Below, piece after piece: positions 651 through 55,097 of a DNA stretch of 64,000 nt. Numbering within the stretch: the first letter of the stretch is position 1; every line of letters begins with the position of its first letter. The position numbers and the translations under genes are program-made. A model generated the notes under the pieces. That model did no database searches. It was given only the letters and a program-made list of their open reading frames with translations, and was not told the origin of the DNA. The DNA comes from Fidelibacterota bacterium (lineage in GTDB: Bacteria > Fidelibacterota > UBA8477 > JABMPR01): positions 1-64,000 of the forward strand of contig JABIFX010000208.1 of NCBI GenBank assembly GCA_018650445.1, read 5' to 3'.

Positions 651-2414
651 ATGACTGAACAAAACAGAACGCTAGTTGCTATTGCCCTGATGGGGCTCAT
701 CCTCATGGTCTTTTTCTCTGATTGGTATCAAGAAAAGGTGGCTCCCGGTAGCACGACACCACAGAAACCACATATAGAGTCCTCTTTCTCAAGTGAGTCA
801 GATACGACTGAACCCGCCACAATTGTCAACACCCCTGTCGTTGTACCCAGTCCGAGTCCTCTAGATACCCCCGTGGCTACCAACCTTACTGAGACACGAG
901 TTGTGGTATCGACACCCCTTTATGAAATGCACTTTTCCAATCGTGGTGGTGGTACTCTCCAAAAGGTTTATTTGAATGATTATTTAATGAAGGATAGTTC
1001 TCGCGTCCAGTTGATTTCTGAAATGGCTGAAGGTGTTCTCGCCAACCAGTTTATAGGATATGATGTTGAAGATTTTGACACTCAAGACCTTTTGTCTGTT
1101 TGTTCGCTAGGTGAAGGTTACGATTTTGACTTCAGTGTTTACGATAATCCCGCTTCCTTTTCCTATGAAATACCTCTCGCTGCCGGTGCTAAGGTTATTC
1201 GCACCTTTACTTTCTATCCCGACAGTTTTCACTTCGATCTTTCACAGGAGTTGATCAATTTTGATCAGGTAAATGCCGGTCGCTATTTTGCAACAAGCTG
1301 GTCCGGAGGTGTTGCTCCTACTGAGAAGAACCGCAAAGATGATCTGTATTATTCTGAAATGTATGCTCTTCTTGGTGATGACAGCAGTCCTTCAGATTAT
1401 TCTGCTGATGAAGACCGCGAGTCCGAAGTGCAAACAGCTCTAACCACCTGGGTTGGCACCCGGTCCAAATATTTCACCGCTATTCTTATCCCAGAGAAAT
1501 CTGTTTCTGAGTTCAAAATGGTGCGCTACCAAACAGCTGGCGGGGATGATAATTCACAGAAGATTTTTGATTTTGATGTCCGTGATGCCTTTGATCGTCG
1601 TAGCGCGGTCAGCCAATCAAATTACCGTGTATATGTTGGACCCTTGGATTTTGATGTCCTCAAGGGTTACAATTTGAATTTTGAGGAAATGATGAACTGG
1701 GGCTGGTTTGGATTAATTGGCAAAGGCGCCCTCTGGGTATTCAAGTCTTTATATAGTATAATTCCTAATTACGGTATCGTGCTTATCATCTTCTCAATTC
1801 TGGTTAAGCTTTTATTGGCCCCGCTCACGAAGAAACAGTTTTCTTCAACCCAAAGCATGCAGCAGGCTCAACCACAGATCACAGCGCTCAAGGAAAAGTA
1901 TAAAGATGATCCAAAGCGTTTGAATGAGGAAACCATGAAGCTTTACAAAGAGCTTGGGGTTAATCCGCTTGGGGGTTGCTTACCTCTTATCATTCAAATG
2001 CCAATCCTTATAGCCATGTTCAACCTGTTTAGAACAACTATTGAGTTGAGAGGTGCGGCCTTTAAGGGTTTAGAGTTCTGGATCTCCGATCTTTCTCTGC
2101 CGGATACCGTCGGTAACATTGCCGGGATAGACATCAACTTACTACCCATTATTATGTCTGCCACCATGATGCTGCAACAGAAGCTGATGACGCCCACCGC
2201 CAATGCTAACCCACAGATGAAAAACATGCCTTATATAATGACGGCTGTTTTCTTCTTTATGTTCTACACCTTCCCATCAGGACTAAACCTTTACTACACC
2301 CTCTTTAATATTATGTCTATCCTTCAGCAGAAGTTGACCCCGAAGCAGGTTTTACCTGCCACCGTCACAGCTCCTGCTCCCGTAGCGCGTCCCAAAAAGA
2401 AGCGTAAGAAGTAA
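651..2414 (+). CDS. yidC: Membrane protein insertase YidC
   Basis: Inserts and folds inner-membrane proteins, alone or with SecYEG. The 587 residues show an N-terminal membrane anchor (about 7-24), a large periplasmic beta domain (about 80-350) as in Gram-negative YidC, then the conserved insertase core. The core begins near NYGIVLIIFSILVKLLLAPL and contains the cytoplasmic loop with QPQITALKEKYKDD and the motif GVNPLGGCLPLIIQMPI. The C-terminus is lysine/arginine rich (RPKKKRKK), consistent with ribosome contact. It starts 6 bases after yidD. The periplasmic domain supports a diderm envelope. Confidence 0.97.
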   Translation: MTEQNRTLVAIALMGLILMVFFSDWYQEKVAPGSTTPQKPHIESSFSSESDTTEPATIVNTPVVVPSPSPLDTPVATNLTETRVVVSTPLYEMHFSNRGGGTLQKVYLNDYLMKDSSRVQLISEMAEGVLANQFIGYDVEDFDTQDLLSVCSLGEGYDFDFSVYDNPASFSYEIPLAAGAKVIRTFTFYPDSFHFDLSQELINFDQVNAGRYFATSWSGGVAPTEKNRKDDLYYSEMYALLGDDSSPSDYSADEDRESEVQTALTTWVGTRSKYFTAILIPEKSVSEFKMVRYQTAGGDDNSQKIFDFDVRDAFDRRSAVSQSNYRVYVGPLDFDVLKGYNLNFEEMMNWGWFGLIGKGALWVFKSLYSIIPNYGIVLIIFSILVKLLLAPLTKKQFSSTQSMQQAQPQITALKEKYKDDPKRLNEETMKLYKELGVNPLGGCLPLIIQMPILIAMFNLFRTTIELRGAAFKGLEFWISDLSLPDTVGNIAGIDINLLPIIMSATMMLQQKLMTPTANANPQMKNMPYIMTAVFFFMFYTFPSGLNLYYTLFNIMSILQQKLTPKQVLPATVTAPAPVARPKKKRKK

Positions 2415-2429
2415 GTTGAAGGACCTTTT

Positions 2430-3770
2430 GTGCCCCCTTTTGTTGAGGATACCATTGTTGCAATCTCCACGCCGCCTGGCATAGGCGGCTTGGCTGTTGT
2501 CCGAATTTCTGGATCCCTCGCTCTAGAGACAATCAATCAGTACTTTGCCAGCGCTCAAAAACTAAAACCACGCTACGCCACCTTTGGAAAACTGAAACAC
2601 TCCTCCCTCAGCGAGGGCGAATTTGACGATTGTGTCGTCACGTATTTCAAAGGACCACACTCCGTTACGGGTGAGGATCTAGTTGAGATTTCCATTCATG
2701 GTGGTGCATATTTACAACAAAAACTGCTTGAGGTGCTTCTGCGTGCACCCGGTTTAAGGGCTGCAAGTGCCGGTGAGTTCACCTTTCGTTCCTTTTTAAG
2801 CGGTCGGATTGATCTTTCTCGAGCTGAAGCTGTGGCTGATCTCATCCATGCAAAGGATGAAGCCGCCCATAAAAACGCCAGAAATCAGCTGTTGGGAAAT
2901 CTTCGACTCCTGGTTGACGCGATGTCAGAGAGGCTAATACACAGCCTTACCATTCTTGAAGCAGAGTTGGATTTTTCTGATCAGGAGATAGAGTTCTCTC
3001 CGCCACAGGATCTTATTGGTCCTCTCTCGGAAATTCAGGAGACGACAAATTCTCTGTTAGAAACATATTTCTACGGACGTAGACTGGAAGAGGGAATTCG
3101 AATTCCCCTGGTCGGCGCACCCAACAGTGGTAAATCCTCCCTTTTTAACCTCCTTCTTGGAGAAGAGAGGGCTATTGTTACTGCCCAGGCTGGCACTACG
3201 CGAGATACTATAGAGAAATCCATTGTTATTGCCGGGCATTCTATTGTCCTGGTTGATACGGCAGGCCTTCGTGAGACCCATAGCGAGGCAGAGCTATCTG
3301 GGGTTGACCGTAGCCTGGATGAGATTGACAGCGCAGACCTGGTTATCCTGGTTCATGCTCCCGACACAGAGACCTCTGTTCCAGACGAACTGATTCACAC
3401 ACCCCAAATAACTGTTTATAATAAGATTGATCTTGTTTCTGCGCGACCTGAAAACATGGACATATACCTTTCTTGCACAACCGGAGAAGGCTTTGAACTA
3501 TTAAAAAAGAGGCTTTATTCACAAGTTGTCAACATGGTTAATGTCGGCGTGGGTGGTGTTGTGTTGAGTCGCGAGCGTCACAGGGATGTATTTATTCGGT
3601 TTAAGGATCAGATTACTGTTTGTATTACGTCTATTCAGAACCAGTTGGGTCCAGAGTATATCGCCTCTGATTTAAGGCAAGCTTTGGATATTCTGGGCGA
3701 AATCACCGGCAAGACAACACCAGACGACATCCTTAATCAAATCTTTAGCGGTTTTTGCGTGGGAAAATAG
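2430..3770 (+). CDS. mnmE: tRNA uridine-5-carboxymethylaminomethyl(34) synthesis GTPase MnmE
   Basis: Works with MnmG to modify U34 in the wobble position of certain tRNAs. The N-terminal formyl-THF-binding domain starts DTIVAISTPPGIGGLAVVRISG. The G domain has GAPNSGKSS (G1), GTTRDTIE (G2), DTAGLRE (G3) and NKIDL (G4). The C-terminus ends FCVGK, the conserved CxGK motif. The start is GTG 2430 preceded by GAAGGA at 2418-2423. The 446 residues are typical of the family. The gene lies directly upstream of its partner mnmG. Confidence 0.97.
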   Translation: MPPFVEDTIVAISTPPGIGGLAVVRISGSLALETINQYFASAQKLKPRYATFGKLKHSSLSEGEFDDCVVTYFKGPHSVTGEDLVEISIHGGAYLQQKLLEVLLRAPGLRAASAGEFTFRSFLSGRIDLSRAEAVADLIHAKDEAAHKNARNQLLGNLRLLVDAMSERLIHSLTILEAELDFSDQEIEFSPPQDLIGPLSEIQETTNSLLETYFYGRRLEEGIRIPLVGAPNSGKSSLFNLLLGEERAIVTAQAGTTRDTIEKSIVIAGHSIVLVDTAGLRETHSEAELSGVDRSLDEIDSADLVILVHAPDTETSVPDELIHTPQITVYNKIDLVSARPENMDIYLSCTTGEGFELLKKRLYSQVVNMVNVGVGGVVLSRERHRDVFIRFKDQITVCITSIQNQLGPEYIASDLRQALDILGEITGKTTPDDILNQIFSGFCVGK

Positions 3771-3772
3771 CT

Positions 3773-5656
3773 TTGACTGTTTCACGTGAATCATATGACG
3801 TCATCGTTATTGGTGGCGGTCACGCTGGTATAGAGGCCGCACTCGCTACCAGTAGGCTGGGTAAAAACACCCTACTTATAACCATGGAGACTGCCGCCCT
3901 GGGGCGAGCATCCTGCAATCCAGCCATCGGTGGGCTAGCCAAAGGCCACCTCGTTCGTGAAATCGATGCGCTTGGTGGTGAAATGGCCAAAGCCACGGAC
4001 CATACCGGTATTCAATTTAAGATGTTAAACAGATCTAAAGGTCGCGCCGTCTGGTCACCCCGCGCACAAATTGATAAAAAAGCTTATAGCGCCTACATGG
4101 TGAACACCTGCAAATCTCAGGCTGGCCTTGAGATCTTTGAAGATGAAGCGACTGCAGTCACCGCCAATGAGGCAGGTTCTGTAATTTCAGGCGTTCTAAC
4201 CCGTAGCGGTTCCTCCTTTAAATGTCAGTCGCTTATTTTAACCAATGGCACTTTTCTCAACGGCCTAATACATATCGGGAACAAAAGTTTCTCGGCTGGA
4301 CGAATTGGTGAGTCCGCCAGCGTGGGCATCACGGAGTCTCTTATAGAGCTCGGCTTTAAAACGGGCCGCCTAAAAACAGGCACCCCACCACGCATTAAGC
4401 GGGACAGTATAGATTTTTCTAAAACGACCATACAGGCTGGTGACAAAAACCCCGAGCCTTTTTCTTTTTCTACCAAGAACTTTGACCCACCTAATGAATA
4501 TTGCTACATCACCAACACCAACCAGGAAACTCATCGCATCATTAATGGCGGTTTAGAGTTCTCCCCTCTCTTCACCGGGGTTATTCAGGGCGTTGGTCCG
4601 CGCTACTGCCCATCCATTGAGGATAAAGTGGTTCGGTTTGCTGAAAAAACCTCCCACCAACTCTTTTTAGAGCCAGAGTGGAGCAACGCAGACCAGCTTT
4701 ATGTAAATGGATTCTCGTCTTCCTTGCCAGAAGAGGTTCAACTGAACAGTCTGCGTACCGTGTCGGGATTAGAAAACGTTGAGTTTATTCGTCCAGGGTA
4801 CGCTATTGAATATGATTTTTTCCCACCCTCCCAGCTCAAAGCCACCATGGAGACCAAGCGGGTTAAGGGCTTGTTTTTTGCTGGACAGATCAACGGAACC
4901 TCCGGATATGAAGAGGCTGCAGCGCAAGGGCTAATAGCGGGGATCAATGCTTCCCGCAGTATTGACGGGTCTGATGCTTTTGTATTGGAAAGATCCGAAG
5001 CTTATATCGGCGTACTCATCGATGATCTGATAACTAAAGATACAGACGAGCCTTATCGCATGTTCACATCCAGGGCCGAACACAGGCTCCTTTTGCGTTA
5101 TGACAACGCCCATTTTCGCCTCGCCGAAAAAGGTTTTAAATTGGGCCTTACCGGGCAAACCCTTTATGAGGACGTGGAGAACCAAAAAGCCCTGGCAGTA
5201 AAAACTGAAGCTTTTTTTAACTCAACCTATATCAAATCAGATGTCATTAATGCGATGGTTGAGACACAGGCCACTGTAAAAGAGAGCCAGACCCTGGCTA
5301 ATATTTTAAAACGCCCTGGGGTTTCGGTCGAAGACATACAAAGCCTGTTACCGGACTGGGTGAACGACCTGTCTCCCACCCTTTTAACACTCATAGCAAC
5401 CAACACCAAATACGCTGGCTATATAGAAAGAGAGCGCCTCCAGGTTGAGCGCCTTTCAAAACATCAACAAATGCGCATTCCTGATGCCGTGGATTATTTA
5501 TCCATGCAGGCCATCTCTTTTGAGGCCAGACAAAAGCTTGACAAGATTCGCCCCGAAACTATTGGACGGGCATCCAGAATCAGCGGCGTTACCCCAGCTG
5601 ATGTTTCTTTGTTAATTATTCTTATTAAAAAAAATGTTTCACGTGAAACACACTGA
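3773..5656 (+). CDS. mnmG: tRNA uridine-5-carboxymethylaminomethyl(34) synthesis enzyme MnmG (GidA)
   Basis: FAD-dependent partner of MnmE. The N-terminal dinucleotide-binding motif is IGGGHAGIEAALA, and the family signature follows as SCNPAIGGLAKGHLVREIDA. GTSGYEEAAAQGLIAG and TSRAEHRLLLRYDNA are also canonical. The start is probably TTG 3773, just after the mnmE stop and preceded by GGGAAAA; TTG 3755 is an alternative that would overlap mnmE. The gene ends with TGA and overlaps mfd by 23 bases. Both ends carry a parS-like palindrome that encodes VSRES and VSRET respectively. Confidence 0.97.
   Translation: MTVSRESYDVIVIGGGHAGIEAALATSRLGKNTLLITMETAALGRASCNPAIGGLAKGHLVREIDALGGEMAKATDHTGIQFKMLNRSKGRAVWSPRAQIDKKAYSAYMVNTCKSQAGLEIFEDEATAVTANEAGSVISGVLTRSGSSFKCQSLILTNGTFLNGLIHIGNKSFSAGRIGESASVGITESLIELGFKTGRLKTGTPPRIKRDSIDFSKTTIQAGDKNPEPFSFSTKNFDPPNEYCYITNTNQETHRIINGGLEFSPLFTGVIQGVGPRYCPSIEDKVVRFAEKTSHQLFLEPEWSNADQLYVNGFSSSLPEEVQLNSLRTVSGLENVEFIRPGYAIEYDFFPPSQLKATMETKRVKGLFFAGQINGTSGYEEAAAQGLIAGINASRSIDGSDAFVLERSEAYIGVLIDDLITKDTDEPYRMFTSRAEHRLLLRYDNAHFRLAEKGFKLGLTGQTLYEDVENQKALAVKTEAFFNSTYIKSDVINAMVETQATVKESQTLANILKRPGVSVEDIQSLLPDWVNDLSPTLLTLIATNTKYAGYIERERLQVERLSKHQQMRIPDAVDYLSMQAISFEARQKLDKIRPETIGRASRISGVTPADVSLLIILIKKNVSRETH
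3778..3793. promoter_or_regulatory. parS-like centromere site 1 (ParB binding)
   Basis: The sequence TGTTTCACGTGAATCA differs at one position from the palindrome TGTTTCACGTGAAACA found at the other end of mnmG. The known parS consensus is TGTTNCACGTGAAACA. ParB binds such sites near the origin for chromosome segregation. It lies within the first codons of mnmG. Confidence 0.75.
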
Positions 5657-8600
5657 TCTTTCATCACAAATAATCCGAACCTATAGGCTTTCTGGCCCCT
5701 CTATTTCTGGGGTGGAACCACCGCTTCTGGCTTTTCTTGTTCAGGCAAACCTGAGCAAACAGCCTGTGGTTTTAATTTTACCCGACAAGCCATCCGCCGA
5801 GCGAGCACTCAATGACATCGTGGCTCTGAACCTTGGCCAAGAGGTGCATTTTGTAGGAAGTGATCGAGTGGATGGGATTGACACGGGACAGTCTGGTCGA
5901 TCTCTGCGAGCGTTGCTTGGGGCAAATCCCGGTATATATGTTACTCAGGCTGCTGAACTTTCTGGAAGCATCTCAGAAGACACGCTTAAAAGTCTTATTC
6001 TACAGAAAGACCAAGAATATTCAGTGTCAGACCTCGAGAGAGATTTAACTGAGTATGGTTTTACCCGAGACTCATTCGTTGTAGAGCCGGGTTATTATGC
6101 TACCCGCGGTGGTGTTTTTGATGTGTTCCCTGGCGATCAAAACAAACCCCTTCGTCTTGATTTTTTTGGCAACACCCTTGAGTCTATCCGTGAGTTTGAT
6201 CCAGCTACCCAGCTGTCGGGAGTTGAGCACGATGAAATAATCATTTATCCAGAGAACCCTTTTGTTGAAACAGTAGTAGACCCGCTAATAGATTCAGTAC
6301 CGCCTGGGGTTTGCTTTCTTCAATATCGTCCCATCATTGAAGATTCAGACTCTCTTTCCATTGCCAGTATTCTTAAAAAGGATCGCTCGGGTGATGTGTC
6401 CTGGATCTTCCAGGCCAAGGTTGAATCAAAAACGGTGTATGATGTCGAGGTCCAACCTGACTTTCAGCGAAACCTTGAAGCTTTTCGGGCCCGCCTCAGT
6501 CATTTAAACGAAGAAAGCTATCGGGTTTATATCTGTGCTGATAGCAATATCCAGCTCGATCGGCTGCAAGTCTTGTTTGAAGATCTAGCTTTTGAGGGCG
6601 TGCGCCTTTCCTTGTCGTCAGGGTTTATCGATCACAAAAACAAGTTGGCCGTCCTCACTGATCATCAAATTTTTGGCAGAACTCGAAAACGAAGCGTTGT
6701 TCCCAGATCCTTTCCGGTAAAGCCCGCTACACGCATTGAGGCTTTTGAAGAGGGTGATTATGTTGTTCATCTCGATTATGGTGTCGGTAAGTATTTAGGT
6801 ATCGAGTTGATGCCATTTCAAAAGACGATTCGCGAGGTTCTGGCTCTTGAATATGAGGCTGGTGACCGCATTTATGTTCCCGTTGAAAAAATGCACCGTG
6901 TGCATCGTTACGAATCCCAGCTGGAGACTCCGCCAAAACTCACCCGTCTACGTACCACTGAATGGGACCAGGTAAGAATTAAAACCCGTAAGGCGGTTGA
7001 TAATTATGCGAAAGAGCTTATCGAGCTCTATGCCAACCGCTTTATCGTAGAGGGTTTTCGTTACAATCCGGATAACGACTTTCAAAAGCGCCTTGAAGCT
7101 TCATTTATGTATGATGAGACCAGCGACCAGCTAAAGGCCGTTGAGGATATCAAGAAAGATATGGAGTCGGCTTTTCCAATGGATCGCCTGTTATGTGGTG
7201 ATGTGGGCTTTGGAAAAACAGAAGTGGCCATGCGGGCTGTTTTTAAGGCTATAAATGACTCAAAACAGGTCGGGGTGTTGGTGCCAACAACCATTCTGGC
7301 CCAACAGCATTACGAAACCTTTCTGGAGCGCTTCGCAGATTACCCTGTAAGTGTGGGCGTGCTTTCCCGTTTTAGAACTCCAAAACAGATTAAAAAGACG
7401 CTGGCGGACCTCGAAAAAGGTTTGCTTGACGTGGTAATTGGAACCCACAGAGTCCTATCCAAAGATGTTGTTTTTAATAAACTTGGGCTGCTAATTGTTG
7501 ATGAAGAACATCGCTTTGGCGTTAAACATAAAGAACGGATTAAGGAAATAAAAATGTCCGTGGATTCTCTAGCCATGACAGCGACCCCTATCCCCCGTAC
7601 TCTACAGATGTCTCTTATGGGTGCCCGGGATCTCTCTATGTTAAAAACACCACCAAAAGAGCGCCAGCCGATTGAAACTGTGATTATGGATTTTGATGAA
7701 AGTCGCGTACGTGAGGCTGTTCTGAGGGAGGTTGATCGTGGGGGTCAGGTCTTTTTTGTCCATAACAGGGTTGAGTCGATCGGTATTATGTTAAGCCGGC
7801 TGCAAAAACTACTTCCTGAAGTAAAGTTTGGCCTGGGTCATGGTCAAATGAACCCCCGTGAGCTTGAACGCGTCATGTTGGGGTTTTTCCATAAAGAATT
7901 TGACGTACTGCTTTCCACCACTATTGTTGAATCTGGTTTGGATATACCAAACGCGAACACCATTATTGTTAATAGAGCCGACGCCATGGGTTTGTCGCAA
8001 CTTTATCAGCTTAGAGGACGCGTGGGTCGGTCTCACAGAAAGGCTTGGGCTTTCTTTATTTCGCCCGGTTTCAGGAAGCTTAGCGTAAACGCCATAAGGC
8101 GTCTCAACGCCCTGGAAAGACATGCCCATTATGGGGGTGGCTATGAGATTGCCATGCGTGATTTAGAAATTCGAGGTTCGGGAAATGTCTTCGGAACCGA
8201 GCAAAGTGGCCACATCAGCAATATAGGATATCACCTATACACACGGATTCTAAAAGACACCCTTGAAACCTTAAAAGAAATTGGCGGTGACCAGGCGGTC
8301 ACCTTTCCTCCCACAGAGATGACTCTCGACATGGAGATGCAAATCCCGCAGAGTTATGTAGAAAGTACGGCTGAGCGCATCGCCAGCTACCGTAGAATTG
8401 CTGAGGCTGATACGGTAAAAGATATTCACGGGATTCGCGACGAACTAAGGGATCGTTTTGGTCTTCTCCCACAAGAAACCATGAATCTCATCGAAGCGGC
8501 ATTAATAAAGAGCCTTGGACAATCTTTGGGGCTTCGAAGTGTCGTCGTGAAGGGGTCGCGCGCACAAAATGACTTTTTACCAGAACACGTGGAACATGAG

Positions 8601-49868: not shown

Positions 49869-50097
49869 GATTCAAATGACTCCTTTTGGGTCCCAGGTTG
49901 GCTACAAGTTCGTTTCGGTTAATTTATCTTCTCTAGAGATTAAGGTGATACTTTTTACAGTAATAACGATAATTCTTTGAAACATGAAATCACACCTGCT
50001 CAGCCTTATAACCTGCGAATGTGCCATTGCATTATCCTGCTACTGGCAATAGTTTCGCATGACTATAAATTTGATCTGATATGTTGAAAGGACAAAC

Positions 50098-51153
50098 ATG
50101 AAAACAAAGAATCTCTGGTTTGCTGCCATTGCTGGACTGATGATCCTAGCCTGTGCAGAAAAAGAGCCAATCTACCCCTGGTTAGCAGATGCCAGCATCC
50201 AGGTAGAAACCAATGGTAAAATTGTTGGCTATGAATTCTCAGCAAAATGGTGAGGCTCCTGTAATCGGCTGGACGCCGAAACATTTATTGACCCCACCCT
50301 CATAACCTACGCCTCTGAGAATTTTATTTCCTACCGTCTCGATGTGGATTCAACCGCCAACGATGACTTATCAGATCGCTATAATATCCATTCTATTCCC
50401 TCCTTCGTTTTTGTCGATGAAAACGGAGATGAAATTGACCGAATCGTTGGCTATATGCCCCCAGCCGAATATCTGGCTGAGATGACACGCATTCGCAATG
50501 GAATCAACACAGTTCCCGACCTGGTGAAACAGCTTCAAGAAGATCCTGACAATGCTGACCTTTTGGTTCGTCTTGCCGGGAAAGTGGAATCTATGAGTGG
50601 TCTAAAGGCAGCCATGACGTACTGGGAAATGCTTTTCGGTCTGGATGGTGTAGATGCTACCCTACACTCAACAGCAGCGTTAAAAATGGCGTTGTATCAC
50701 GCTCAAGAGAATGAAGATCCCGAAACGCTGGTTTCCTTTGTAAATAATGAAACCAATACAGAGGTGCTTCCCCAGGCATTCAGTGCGCTTCGGAATTTTT
50801 ATCGTGGGTCACAAGACAAGGTGGCAGAGGCCGAGACCTATCGTCGTTATGTTGACTTTATGTCTGGTATTCATAAAGAAAGTACCGGTCTATTGAATGG
50901 TTATGCCTGGCGCATGACTCAACTTGAGCTCAATCTTGCGAATGCACTGGAGCGCATAAGTCAGGGTATCGCCCTATTGGCTGAAGACGAGGGGGCTAGA
51001 GAAAAAGCCCAAATCATGGATACTAAAGGCGAAGTGCTTTGGAAGCTTGGGCGTATTGATGAAGCCGTCGCCGTGATGGATGAATGCATACTGCTTCAAC
51101 CAGAAGATAGCTACTATCAGGAACAGAAAGCGAAGTTCCAGACGCCCAGTTAA
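50098..51153 (+). CDS. Selenocysteine-containing thioredoxin-like lipoprotein with TPR-like C-terminus
   Basis: ATG 50098 (AAAGGA 6 bases upstream) opens a frame that meets one in-frame TGA at 50251-50253 and then runs without a stop to TAA 51151-51153. The TGA falls exactly on the first active-site position of a thioredoxin fold: FSAKW-U-GSCNRLDAETF, i.e. WUGSC in place of WCGPC. The thioredoxin features continue with YRLDVDS, the cis-Pro in HSIPSFVFVDENG, and GYMPPAEY. The N-terminus is a lipoprotein signal (GLMILAC, Cys19). The C-terminal 200 residues are helical and TPR-like (EVLWKLGRIDEAVAVMDECI). Total 351 residues with Sec52 and Cys55. The protein is likely a periplasmic oxidoreductase. 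The alternatives are a pseudogene or a sequencing error. Confidence 0.85.
50265..50279 (+). promoter_or_regulatory. Candidate bacterial SECIS hairpin
   Basis: TCGGC, loop TGGAC, GCCGA form a perfect 5-base-pair stem with a 5-base loop. The loop starts 16 bases after the UGA and has G at its second position. This fits general bacterial SECIS rules (short stem, G in the first two loop bases, loop about 16-37 bases from UGA). Folding was done by eye. Confidence 0.5.
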
Positions 51154-51174: not shown

Positions 51175-51203
51175 AAAAGGCCTCAGCAATTGAGGCCTTT
51201 TTT
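51175..51203. terminator. Bidirectional Rho-independent terminator
   Basis: AAAAGGCCTCA, loop GCAAT, TGAGGCCTTTTTT. It lies between the selenoprotein gene (plus) and the metallo-beta-lactamase-fold gene (minus), serving both. Confidence 0.9.
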
Positions 51204-52640: not shown

Positions 52641-54902
52641 CTAAAAGGAAAACCCCGTTTCGATACTTGTCTGGGCAATAACCTCTCCCGAACCGGCATC
52701 CGTATCAATTTCACCATTACCGTCCAGATCAATGTAGCTCTGACGGAAGTCCCAGGTTAGTGTGGCTCCACCACCCAAACCAATAGTCACCTTGTAGCCC
52801 AGCAAAGTTCCTTCGCTGACTATATCAAAGGGATCATCAACATTCATGCGTAGGATATAGGCATTGGCTGCTTCTACCTTTGGAATCAGGTTCGGTGCAA
52901 TACCAATCACGCCCTGAATACCCTTAACTTCAGATTCATCAGAAGTCATATGTTGGTAACCAGCCTGCAAATTAACCACACCAAGAATGTCAGCACCGAT
53001 GCTACCAAAAACACCCATCATGGAAGAATTGTCATAGAGCTTCTCATAGCGGGTACGAGGAGTTAATCCCATTCCAGCATAATCGACAAAACCGACGCGC
53101 TCCAGATCATAATTGCGATCGAACAGTCCGTATACAAAATTACCTGAAGGGGTGATTCTGAATTCGACACTGGCTGTGAGGAAGTTGAAAAGCTGTGCAC
53201 GGAGACCAGGAGCTGTTGCTCCCATACCATACTTGACTTCTTTCTGTCGAACGATACCGTTGTCATCATAATACATGGAGTCAGCGGTTCCAAAATATTG
53301 ACCAGCCTCTGCAAAGAGGACCAGCTTTACTTTGTCCATATTGAGGATGGGGTAGGCTATATCAATACTTACACCACCCACAGTGCTGGGATTCTCGCTC
53401 ACATCAAAGGGGTCTGGTTTGCGTGTGATAACATCATCCCAATCTCTATTATGGTCAGGAGTGTAGTTATCCGTTTTACCGTCACCGTCAATATCCCATT
53501 CATCGGGGGAATTATCGGGACGTCCATCACCATCAGAGTCTTTTGAGTAATCAGCGTCATTTGGAAAATCATCAACGAGATCTGGAATATAGTCACCATC
53601 CTCGTCTTTTAGACCAAGGTATTGGTTATTATCCATGATTACGGTGCTTCCAAAAGTGAGTTTTCCCATGGAAAAGGTTCCACGTAAACCCATGATTCCG
53701 AGACCAGTACTCTCCCCACTAAAGGAGAATTCCTTATAGTTGGCGACGACATTTTCGATTCCAAAATTACCGAATTTAACTCCTATATGATGTCCAGTCT
53801 TACGAACAGAGGGATATTCCATCATGTTTGAATAGCCGTTCATCAACAGTCCATATCCAAGAACCACATTATCAAGTGTTCCCACGCGGATATAGAGCGG
53901 ATCACCTTGTTCACCCCAGCGTACATACATGATCTTGTCAATAATATCCTTGGCTTCGTTCCATTCTTCTTTGCGGATATTACCATCCTGATCCATATAG
54001 ATGACCACATCAAGACCGACACCAAGTTTTCCGATGGAAATATCCGGGCGTAAAGCGATCTGATTGTAGAGTTGGCCATCAATAGTTACGGCACCAAAAC
54101 CAGCATCCATAGCCAGGGCGTCCCCGAAGAGTCCTTCACCATCTTCTTCGGCCTCTTCTTCAGGTTCTTCAGCTGGTGTGGTGGTATCTACTGTTGACGG
54201 AGGAACTGCCGGCATACCAGCATCAGCTTCAGCAGTCTCGGTGCTGTCTCCAGCGGTAGTTTCTGCTACTTCCTCTTCGGCCTCTTCTTCAGTGGCATCA
54301 CCGGTACCCTCGGCATCCGGATCTGCTGGAATCGTATTTTCGTCAGTATCGCCAGTCTCGATGTAACCATCAGTGCTGGAACTAACTGTTTGGCCAGGTC
54401 CACCAGTACTAATCATACCGGTGAGATTATTCATGACGTCTACCATACCTTCAAGTACGATAACCTGATCTCCAGTTTCGGGATCAGTAATCGTCCAGAA
54501 CTCAGTTCCTTTAATGGAAGCCACAGAGGTTGGCGTATGGAGTTGAAAGCCGAATTCAGCCCCCTTGGCATACTTGGTTAAAGCTTGACCATATTCGAGA
54601 CGAACATGGTAACCCGTTCCACCGATGTCTTCTACCATGGTGATGGCGATTTCAGTGTTTTCACGAAGCTTTACCTGGCTTTTATCATCAAGAAGCAACA
54701 TCACGGCAAAACCGTCATTTACTTTGATCTGATCATTATTGTCCAGGATCATGCCCATGGTTACAGGTGTGCTGTAATCGAAATCTTCTGCCTTTTGAAT
54801 CAAGACATCACCTTGAACCTTGGAGATCACAGCGACCTTCTCGGCGAATGCTCCACCGACCAGAATCAATGCAAAGATTAATAGGGAAACTAGATTTTTC
54901 AT
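52641..54902 (-). CDS. FecR-domain outer-membrane protein with acidic linker and calcium-type repeats
   Basis: 753 residues. The order is a signal peptide (MKNLVSLLIFALILVGGAFA) and then a FecR domain (about 25-170: VQGDVLIQKAEDFDYSTPV, SQVKLRENTEIAI, TPTSVASIKGTEFW). A glutamate/threonine-rich linker covers about 195-255. Beta-strand-rich sequence that looks like a porin/barrel follows and is interrupted by aspartate-rich repeats (DEDGDYIPDLVDDFPND, DSDGDGRPDN, DIDGDGKTDN), a thrombospondin type-3/EF-hand-like pattern. The last residues IETGFSF fit an outer-membrane barrel end. ATG 54902 follows GAGGAAG. Function unknown. Confidence 0.85.
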   Translation of the reverse strand: MKNLVSLLIFALILVGGAFAEKVAVISKVQGDVLIQKAEDFDYSTPVTMGMILDNNDQIKVNDGFAVMLLLDDKSQVKLRENTEIAITMVEDIGGTGYHVRLEYGQALTKYAKGAEFGFQLHTPTSVASIKGTEFWTITDPETGDQVIVLEGMVDVMNNLTGMISTGGPGQTVSSSTDGYIETGDTDENTIPADPDAEGTGDATEEEAEEEVAETTAGDSTETAEADAGMPAVPPSTVDTTTPAEEPEEEAEEDGEGLFGDALAMDAGFGAVTIDGQLYNQIALRPDISIGKLGVGLDVVIYMDQDGNIRKEEWNEAKDIIDKIMYVRWGEQGDPLYIRVGTLDNVVLGYGLLMNGYSNMMEYPSVRKTGHHIGVKFGNFGIENVVANYKEFSFSGESTGLGIMGLRGTFSMGKLTFGSTVIMDNNQYLGLKDEDGDYIPDLVDDFPNDADYSKDSDGDGRPDNSPDEWDIDGDGKTDNYTPDHNRDWDDVITRKPDPFDVSENPSTVGGVSIDIAYPILNMDKVKLVLFAEAGQYFGTADSMYYDDNGIVRQKEVKYGMGATAPGLRAQLFNFLTASVEFRITPSGNFVYGLFDRNYDLERVGFVDYAGMGLTPRTRYEKLYDNSSMMGVFGSIGADILGVVNLQAGYQHMTSDESEVKGIQGVIGIAPNLIPKVEAANAYILRMNVDDPFDIVSEGTLLGYKVTIGLGGGATLTWDFRQSYIDLDGNGEIDTDAGSGEVIAQTSIETGFSF

Positions 54903-55097
54903 GTGTACTTCCTCATTCTGTATAGATTTATATCCTTTTGATATCAGTGCCGAATTTAACAAACAGCCAAGGGCCACCAAGCATATTCGTTCAGCTTTAG
55001 GATCTGGAAATTCTGGACAGATATTGATTTTATCAACGGGTTTTGCAGCTTCACGACCAAAGAAAAAGAGCGTAGCTAGTTCGCTTTTATCTTGCCC

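Follow-up and report, generated by a model that had tools for sequence, protein, structure and literature searches.

A putative selenoprotein family of lipid-anchored thioredoxin-TPR proteins in Neomarinimicrobiota

The locus considered here is a reading frame at 50098-51153 on the forward strand of the window, that is, of the whole 64-kb stretch of DNA that was analysed. Read directly, the frame has exactly one in-frame stop, TGA 50251-50253, at residue 52. The original prediction had described a single TGA in an otherwise intact frame, falling on the first position of a UxxC motif whose second cysteine, Cys55, is kept; all of this can be seen in the sequence. So can the lipoprotein signal that it had placed upstream, with lipobox ILAC and Cys19. 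The features of the locus are as follows.

50087-50092 (+): likely ribosome-binding site AAAGGA, 5 nt 5' of the ATG (from sequence)
50098-51153 (+): putative selenoprotein gene, ATG at 50098, 351 codons with UGA as Sec, then TAA (from sequence and homologues)
50098-50154 (+): signal peptide with lipobox ILAC; the lipidated Cys19 would be 50152-50154 (from sequence)
50206-50478 (+): Thioredoxin_2 / DsbD-gamma-like domain, residues 37-127 (from Pfam PF13098, and PDB and fold matches to DsbD-gamma)
50251-50253 (+): TGA, predicted to be read as selenocysteine 52, first position of WUGSC (UxxC) (62 TGA, 13 Cys, 0 other in homologues)
50260-50262 (+): codon TGT of the putative resolving Cys55 of the UGSC motif (invariant among homologues)
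50265-50279 (+): candidate bSECIS hairpin, 5-bp stem and 5-nt loop UGGAC at 50270-50274 (from folding z-score, covariation and published model)
50344-51153 (+): truncated ORF with GTG start, as a standard gene finder would give it (from a mechanical ORF finder)
50398-50400 (+): cis-Pro101 of the thioredoxin fold (alignment column invariant)
50512-51138 (+): helical TPR tail, about residues 139-347 (from Pfam TPR matches, AlphaFold2 model and fold matches)
51175-51203 (+): intrinsic terminator, 11-bp stem and T run (from sequence)

The gene appears to be monocistronic. Its N-terminal lipoprotein signal, MKTKNLWFAAIAGLMILAC, with the lipobox, suggests a periplasmic location for the product. The domain that follows matches PF13098 (Thioredoxin_2) at 51.6 bits (gathering cut-off 27; E 1.3e-13). 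Two further elements of the prediction were confirmed: the cis-proline is Pro101, invariant in the alignment, and the TPR-like helical tail is matched by TPR models in Pfam. As had also been foreseen, automatic calling gives the C-terminal part only, the ORF finder reporting just 50344-51153. No second frame in the 64-kb window resembles a TGA-interrupted gene.

One way to judge an in-frame TGA is to ask what relatives carry at the same codon, a comparison that the prediction itself had proposed. A profile search of 245 genomes from the phylum recovers the gene in 76, with protein identity to the window protein ranging from 86% down to 24%; in a search of 60 relatives, all full-length copies from the same genus have one TGA. 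Among named records of another collection, the closest homologues belong to Candidatus Neomarinimicrobiota, with one Candidatus Aminicenantes record beyond the phylum. When the loci from these 76 genomes and the Aminicenantes record are aligned, the 75 homologues that reach the site of residue 52 (two further ones end before it and are left out of the count) carry TGA in 62 cases and Cys (TGT or TGC) in 13; no other residue occurs there, and neither TAA nor TAG was seen at the site in aligned homologues. The partner Cys is kept in every homologue reaching the site. Other members spell the motif UGAC, USWC, UTWC or UGPC; its general form is UxxC. Nearly all family members have a lipobox-type signal: a strict pattern flags only part of them, and inspection by eye adds the rest. 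In the Aminicenantes copy the signal peptide is of the ordinary type. A sequencing error at 50251, which would have undone the prediction, is excluded, since relatives share UGA or Cys at that position.

A second line of evidence is the hairpin UCGGC-UGGAC-GCCGA at 50265-50279. The prediction had described a 5-bp stem with a G in its loop, 16 bases after the UGA: stem and loop G stand as described, and the distance holds for the loop, not for the base of the hairpin. The published bSECIS model allows a stem of 4-16 bp and a loop of 3-9 nt, with G in the first two loop positions and the loop 16-37 nt after the UGA (PMC13188914). The window hairpin, with G at loop position 2, falls within every one of these bounds. 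Throughout the main group of homologues its position is fixed, the loop lying 16 nt after the UGA. Among 42 distinct sequences, two-sided (compensatory) changes are found in all five stem pairs, and 92% of cells pair. The stem scores 0.383 for covariation; shuffles score 0.156, and none of 500 reaches the observed value. Sliding the stem partner by 1-3 columns destroys the pairing; of these two controls the slid versions preserve relatedness and the shuffles do not. Measured against synonymous recodings, the mean folding z is -1.57 for Sec copies, -0.05 for control windows of the same genes and -0.43 for Cys copies. Codon choice is skewed as well: the Arg codon of the stem is CGG in 38 of the 51 Sec copies with Arg there; in the remainder of these genes CGG makes up 146 of 790 Arg codons.

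One clade (families f9, f12 and f13; eight genomes) is without the main hairpin. Its members (loci L108, L111, L113, L114, L119, L123, L129 and L135) have instead GACC-AGUU-GGUC or AACC-AGUU-GGUU a few bases downstream; read from the sequences, the loop lies 22 nt after the UGA and again has G at position 2.

The prediction had also called for selA, selB, selD and a tRNA-Sec to be sought in the genome. All four are present in the source genome (3.9 Mb in 273 contigs, 87% complete): SelA (521 bits), SelB (348 bits), SelD (362 bits) and tRNA-Sec (72 bits) match their models above curated cut-offs, and ARAGORN gives the anticodon of the tRNA as tca. SelA and SelB are encoded close together on one contig. 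In that region (L171, source genome C265:9000-19567; 2654-8128, minus strand) selA and selB flank a gene whose 427-aa product resembles Nramp membrane proteins, and a gene for a TauE/SafE-like membrane protein lies upstream of selA; both were named by eye, and each is a candidate transporter, of selenium or of metal, tied to Sec synthesis. SelD is itself UGA-containing, with one in-frame TGA in AAGUAGK(IGPGDL) (L170, source genome C56:13500-17500; about 1335-2471, plus strand).

Across relatives, SelB exceeds its cut-off in 22 of 23 tested Sec-form genomes, and in the remaining one it is split into two adjacent pieces; it is present in 11 of 13 Cys-form genomes and in none of four tested genomes without the selenoprotein gene. 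Some TGA-form genomes, for example G030 (98% complete) and G054 (96%), yield no tRNA-Sec above the Rfam cut-off though SelB is present; in these genomes the tRNA may have diverged, may have escaped the initial screen of the search, or may have dropped out of the assembly. Several genomes of the same genus have tRNA-Sec and lack the selenoprotein gene, which is therefore dispensable.

Taken with the alignment, these comparisons make it very probable that 50098-51153 is a genuine selenoprotein gene with its UGA decoded as Sec. SelB and tRNA-Sec would decode UGA 50251-50253, guided by the hairpin 50265-50279. The UGA could alternatively be read as an ordinary residue (Trp, Gly or Cys), through a changed code or general read-through, and its place within a conserved frame agrees with such a reading; yet among the window's 48 large ORFs 12 end in TGA, which makes the genetic code standard, as the prediction had held, Cys is the sole other state in the alignment, and the covarying hairpin goes with a full Sec machinery, which together leave this reading very improbable. 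The fragmented draft assembly and the truncated ORF would be compatible with a broken gene, through nonsense mutation of the codon for the active-site Cys or decay to a pseudogene, or with an error of assembly there. The homologues refute this: 61 other genomes have TGA at this codon, at 24-86% identity and with frames intact, and a column pattern of TGA and Cys only excludes the chance nonsense mutation already thought unlikely in the prediction. The probability of this reading is next to nothing.

The family also records changes at the recoded site. An unrooted tree, built with the trait column left out, calls for at least 6-7 changes between Sec and Cys. Three Cys copies (L110, L128 and L156), each nested singly among Sec copies, keep four or five stem pairs; the other ten, in older Cys clades, have lost the hairpin. 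Such a pattern would arise if these three had recently gone from Sec to Cys and still carried a relict SECIS. On the unrooted tree the ancestral state of the family is likely, at most, to have been Sec. Compensatory changes in the stem, an alternative hairpin position in one clade and Cys copies with relict hairpins let the evolution of recoding be followed in a natural series.

What the protein does has to be approached through its structure. The AlphaFold2 model, with Cys standing for Sec, has a mean pLDDT of 90.4 and shows a helical array C-terminal to a thioredoxin fold. In a fold search the thioredoxin domain matches DsbD-gamma, with TM-scores to target of 0.62-0.73; by sequence profile the matches are DsbD-gamma, disulfide isomerases and TPR proteins. 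In NCBIfam, no model reaches its cut-off for the window protein or for four relatives. A redox role would follow from motif and fold. The source genome also encodes a full-length DsbD of 598 aa, identified from its own sequence and from the DsbD-like matches of relatives; it is a plausible electron donor of the selenoprotein.

These observations argue, with moderate confidence, for an envelope thiol-disulfide reductase or isomerase that is re-reduced by DsbD or a similar donor and uses its TPR tail for docking. The product would be held in the envelope by a lipid anchor and combine a DsbD-gamma-like thioredoxin domain (WUGSC) with the TPR tail. In envelope proteins, disulfides or cysteines that have become oxidised would be the targets of Sec52, and Cys55 would resolve the intermediate as an Se-S bond. 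The selenoprotein would be re-reduced by the DsbD of the same genome or by a donor of similar kind, and the TPR tail may dock clients or a folding partner. The direction of the redox reaction, the donor, the clients of the tail and the side of the envelope are all presumptive here.

Gene neighbourhoods in family f14 speak for the same reading. There a gene for an FKBP-type prolyl isomerase mostly lies 10-35 bp upstream on the same strand, or else downstream, of the selenoprotein gene, and one f15 genome has the same adjacency; in one f14 genome (L126:6965-7783, minus strand) the gene directly upstream encodes a two-domain FKBP-type prolyl isomerase. Genera g2, g3 and g9 have NAD(P) transhydrogenase-type genes downstream. 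Within the genus of the window the neighbourhood says nothing about function: the nearby genes (for a metallophosphoesterase, a metallo-beta-lactamase-fold protein with TPR and a FecR-domain protein) are not conserved beyond the genus and were set aside, as was an upstream order of AccA, YbgC-like thioesterase and glycosyltransferase in several families, judged to be housekeeping synteny. The FecR-domain protein (52641-54980, minus strand; 779 aa) has Asp-rich repeats of a calcium-binding-like kind and is conserved near the selenoprotein gene within the genus.

A second perspective on function supposes that the selenoprotein is mainly a lipid-anchored chaperedoxin, combining holdase activity with redox protection as CnoX does, and not a disulfide reductase or isomerase. 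The thioredoxin-plus-TPR architecture would fit, as would the FKBP neighbours in f14, and the top PDB match by E-value across both domains is E. coli YbbN/CnoX (3qou). Against it, the whole-chain TM-score to that structure is as low as 0.22, the thioredoxin domain is closer to DsbD-gamma, and the known partners of CnoX, GroEL and DnaK, are cytoplasmic (PMC6282202), which does not sit with the lipoprotein signal found here; this perspective is rather unlikely. Less likely still is an envelope peroxidase, in which the Sec would reduce peroxides or other small oxidants in place of disulfides. Selenocysteine is a good peroxidatic residue; here, however, it stands in a UxxC site with a cis-Pro, which is of the thioredoxin/DsbD type, and no peroxidase family was matched in Pfam or NCBIfam. 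The reductase or isomerase reading remains the preferred one. For marine bacteria the family suggests that a step in the folding or repair of envelope proteins may depend on selenium.

A more inclusive proposal can be offered tentatively: an undescribed, phylum-wide and ancestrally Sec family of Neomarinimicrobiota, in which a lipid-anchored Sec-thioredoxin with a TPR tail would work in the envelope, either as a chaperedoxin or as a disulfide isomerase; Sec would have given way to Cys repeatedly, and the SECIS would lie in one of two places according to lineage. Such a protein is easily overlooked or taken for a fragment, as gene callers miss or truncate its gene. Roughly one in three of the Neomarinimicrobiota genomes sampled carries the gene for this redox protein. 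Searches of open-access literature turned up no description of the lipoprotein-TPR architecture and no selenoprotein study in Neomarinimicrobiota/Marinimicrobia.

Several known systems invite comparison. The letters UGSC are all that is common with the UGSC-containing selenoprotein NF041046, and assignment to it was rejected: the window protein has no match to its model at E up to 1, and the motifs of relatives vary. The best NCBIfam match is the Rhodanese/DsbD fusion-like selenoprotein TsoB (NF045694), to its DsbD-gamma-like end only; the score is 60 bits against a cut-off of 805, and the rhodanese and membrane parts are absent here. The gamma domain of DsbD itself ranks high among the structures that match the thioredoxin domain; the window protein differs from DsbD in being without the membrane electron channel, in its lipid anchor, TPR tail and Sec, and in that the genome has a separate full-length DsbD. 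CnoX/YbbN shares an N-terminal thioredoxin domain and a C-terminal TPR domain with the window protein, which differs in its lipoprotein signal, its Sec (CnoX uses SxxC or CxxC; PMC6282202) and its domain arrangement; assignment to CnoX, a cytoplasmic system, was rejected on the lipoprotein signal of the window protein and nearly all its relatives.

Closest among published systems are UxxC selenoproteins of the same domain type. A 2026 inventory of 119 prokaryotic selenoprotein families includes a UxxC 'Thiol:disulfide interchange protein' under PF13098 (PMC13188914), and a 2008 survey of ocean reads has the same kind (Trx-like 2, cd02953), counting 22 sequences with Sec and 2,098 with Cys (PMC2398784). 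Common to these and to the window protein are a PF13098 domain above cut-off, a DsbD-gamma-like fold and the UxxC motif. Since UxxC selenoproteins of the DsbD-gamma/PF13098 type are already catalogued, the general kind is known, and what appears to be new here is the family and its lipoprotein-TPR architecture; compared by description, the listings mention neither the lipoprotein signal nor the TPR tail, both of which are present here. The family is unusual also in that Sec is the majority state (62 versus 13), unlike the published cd02953 counts.
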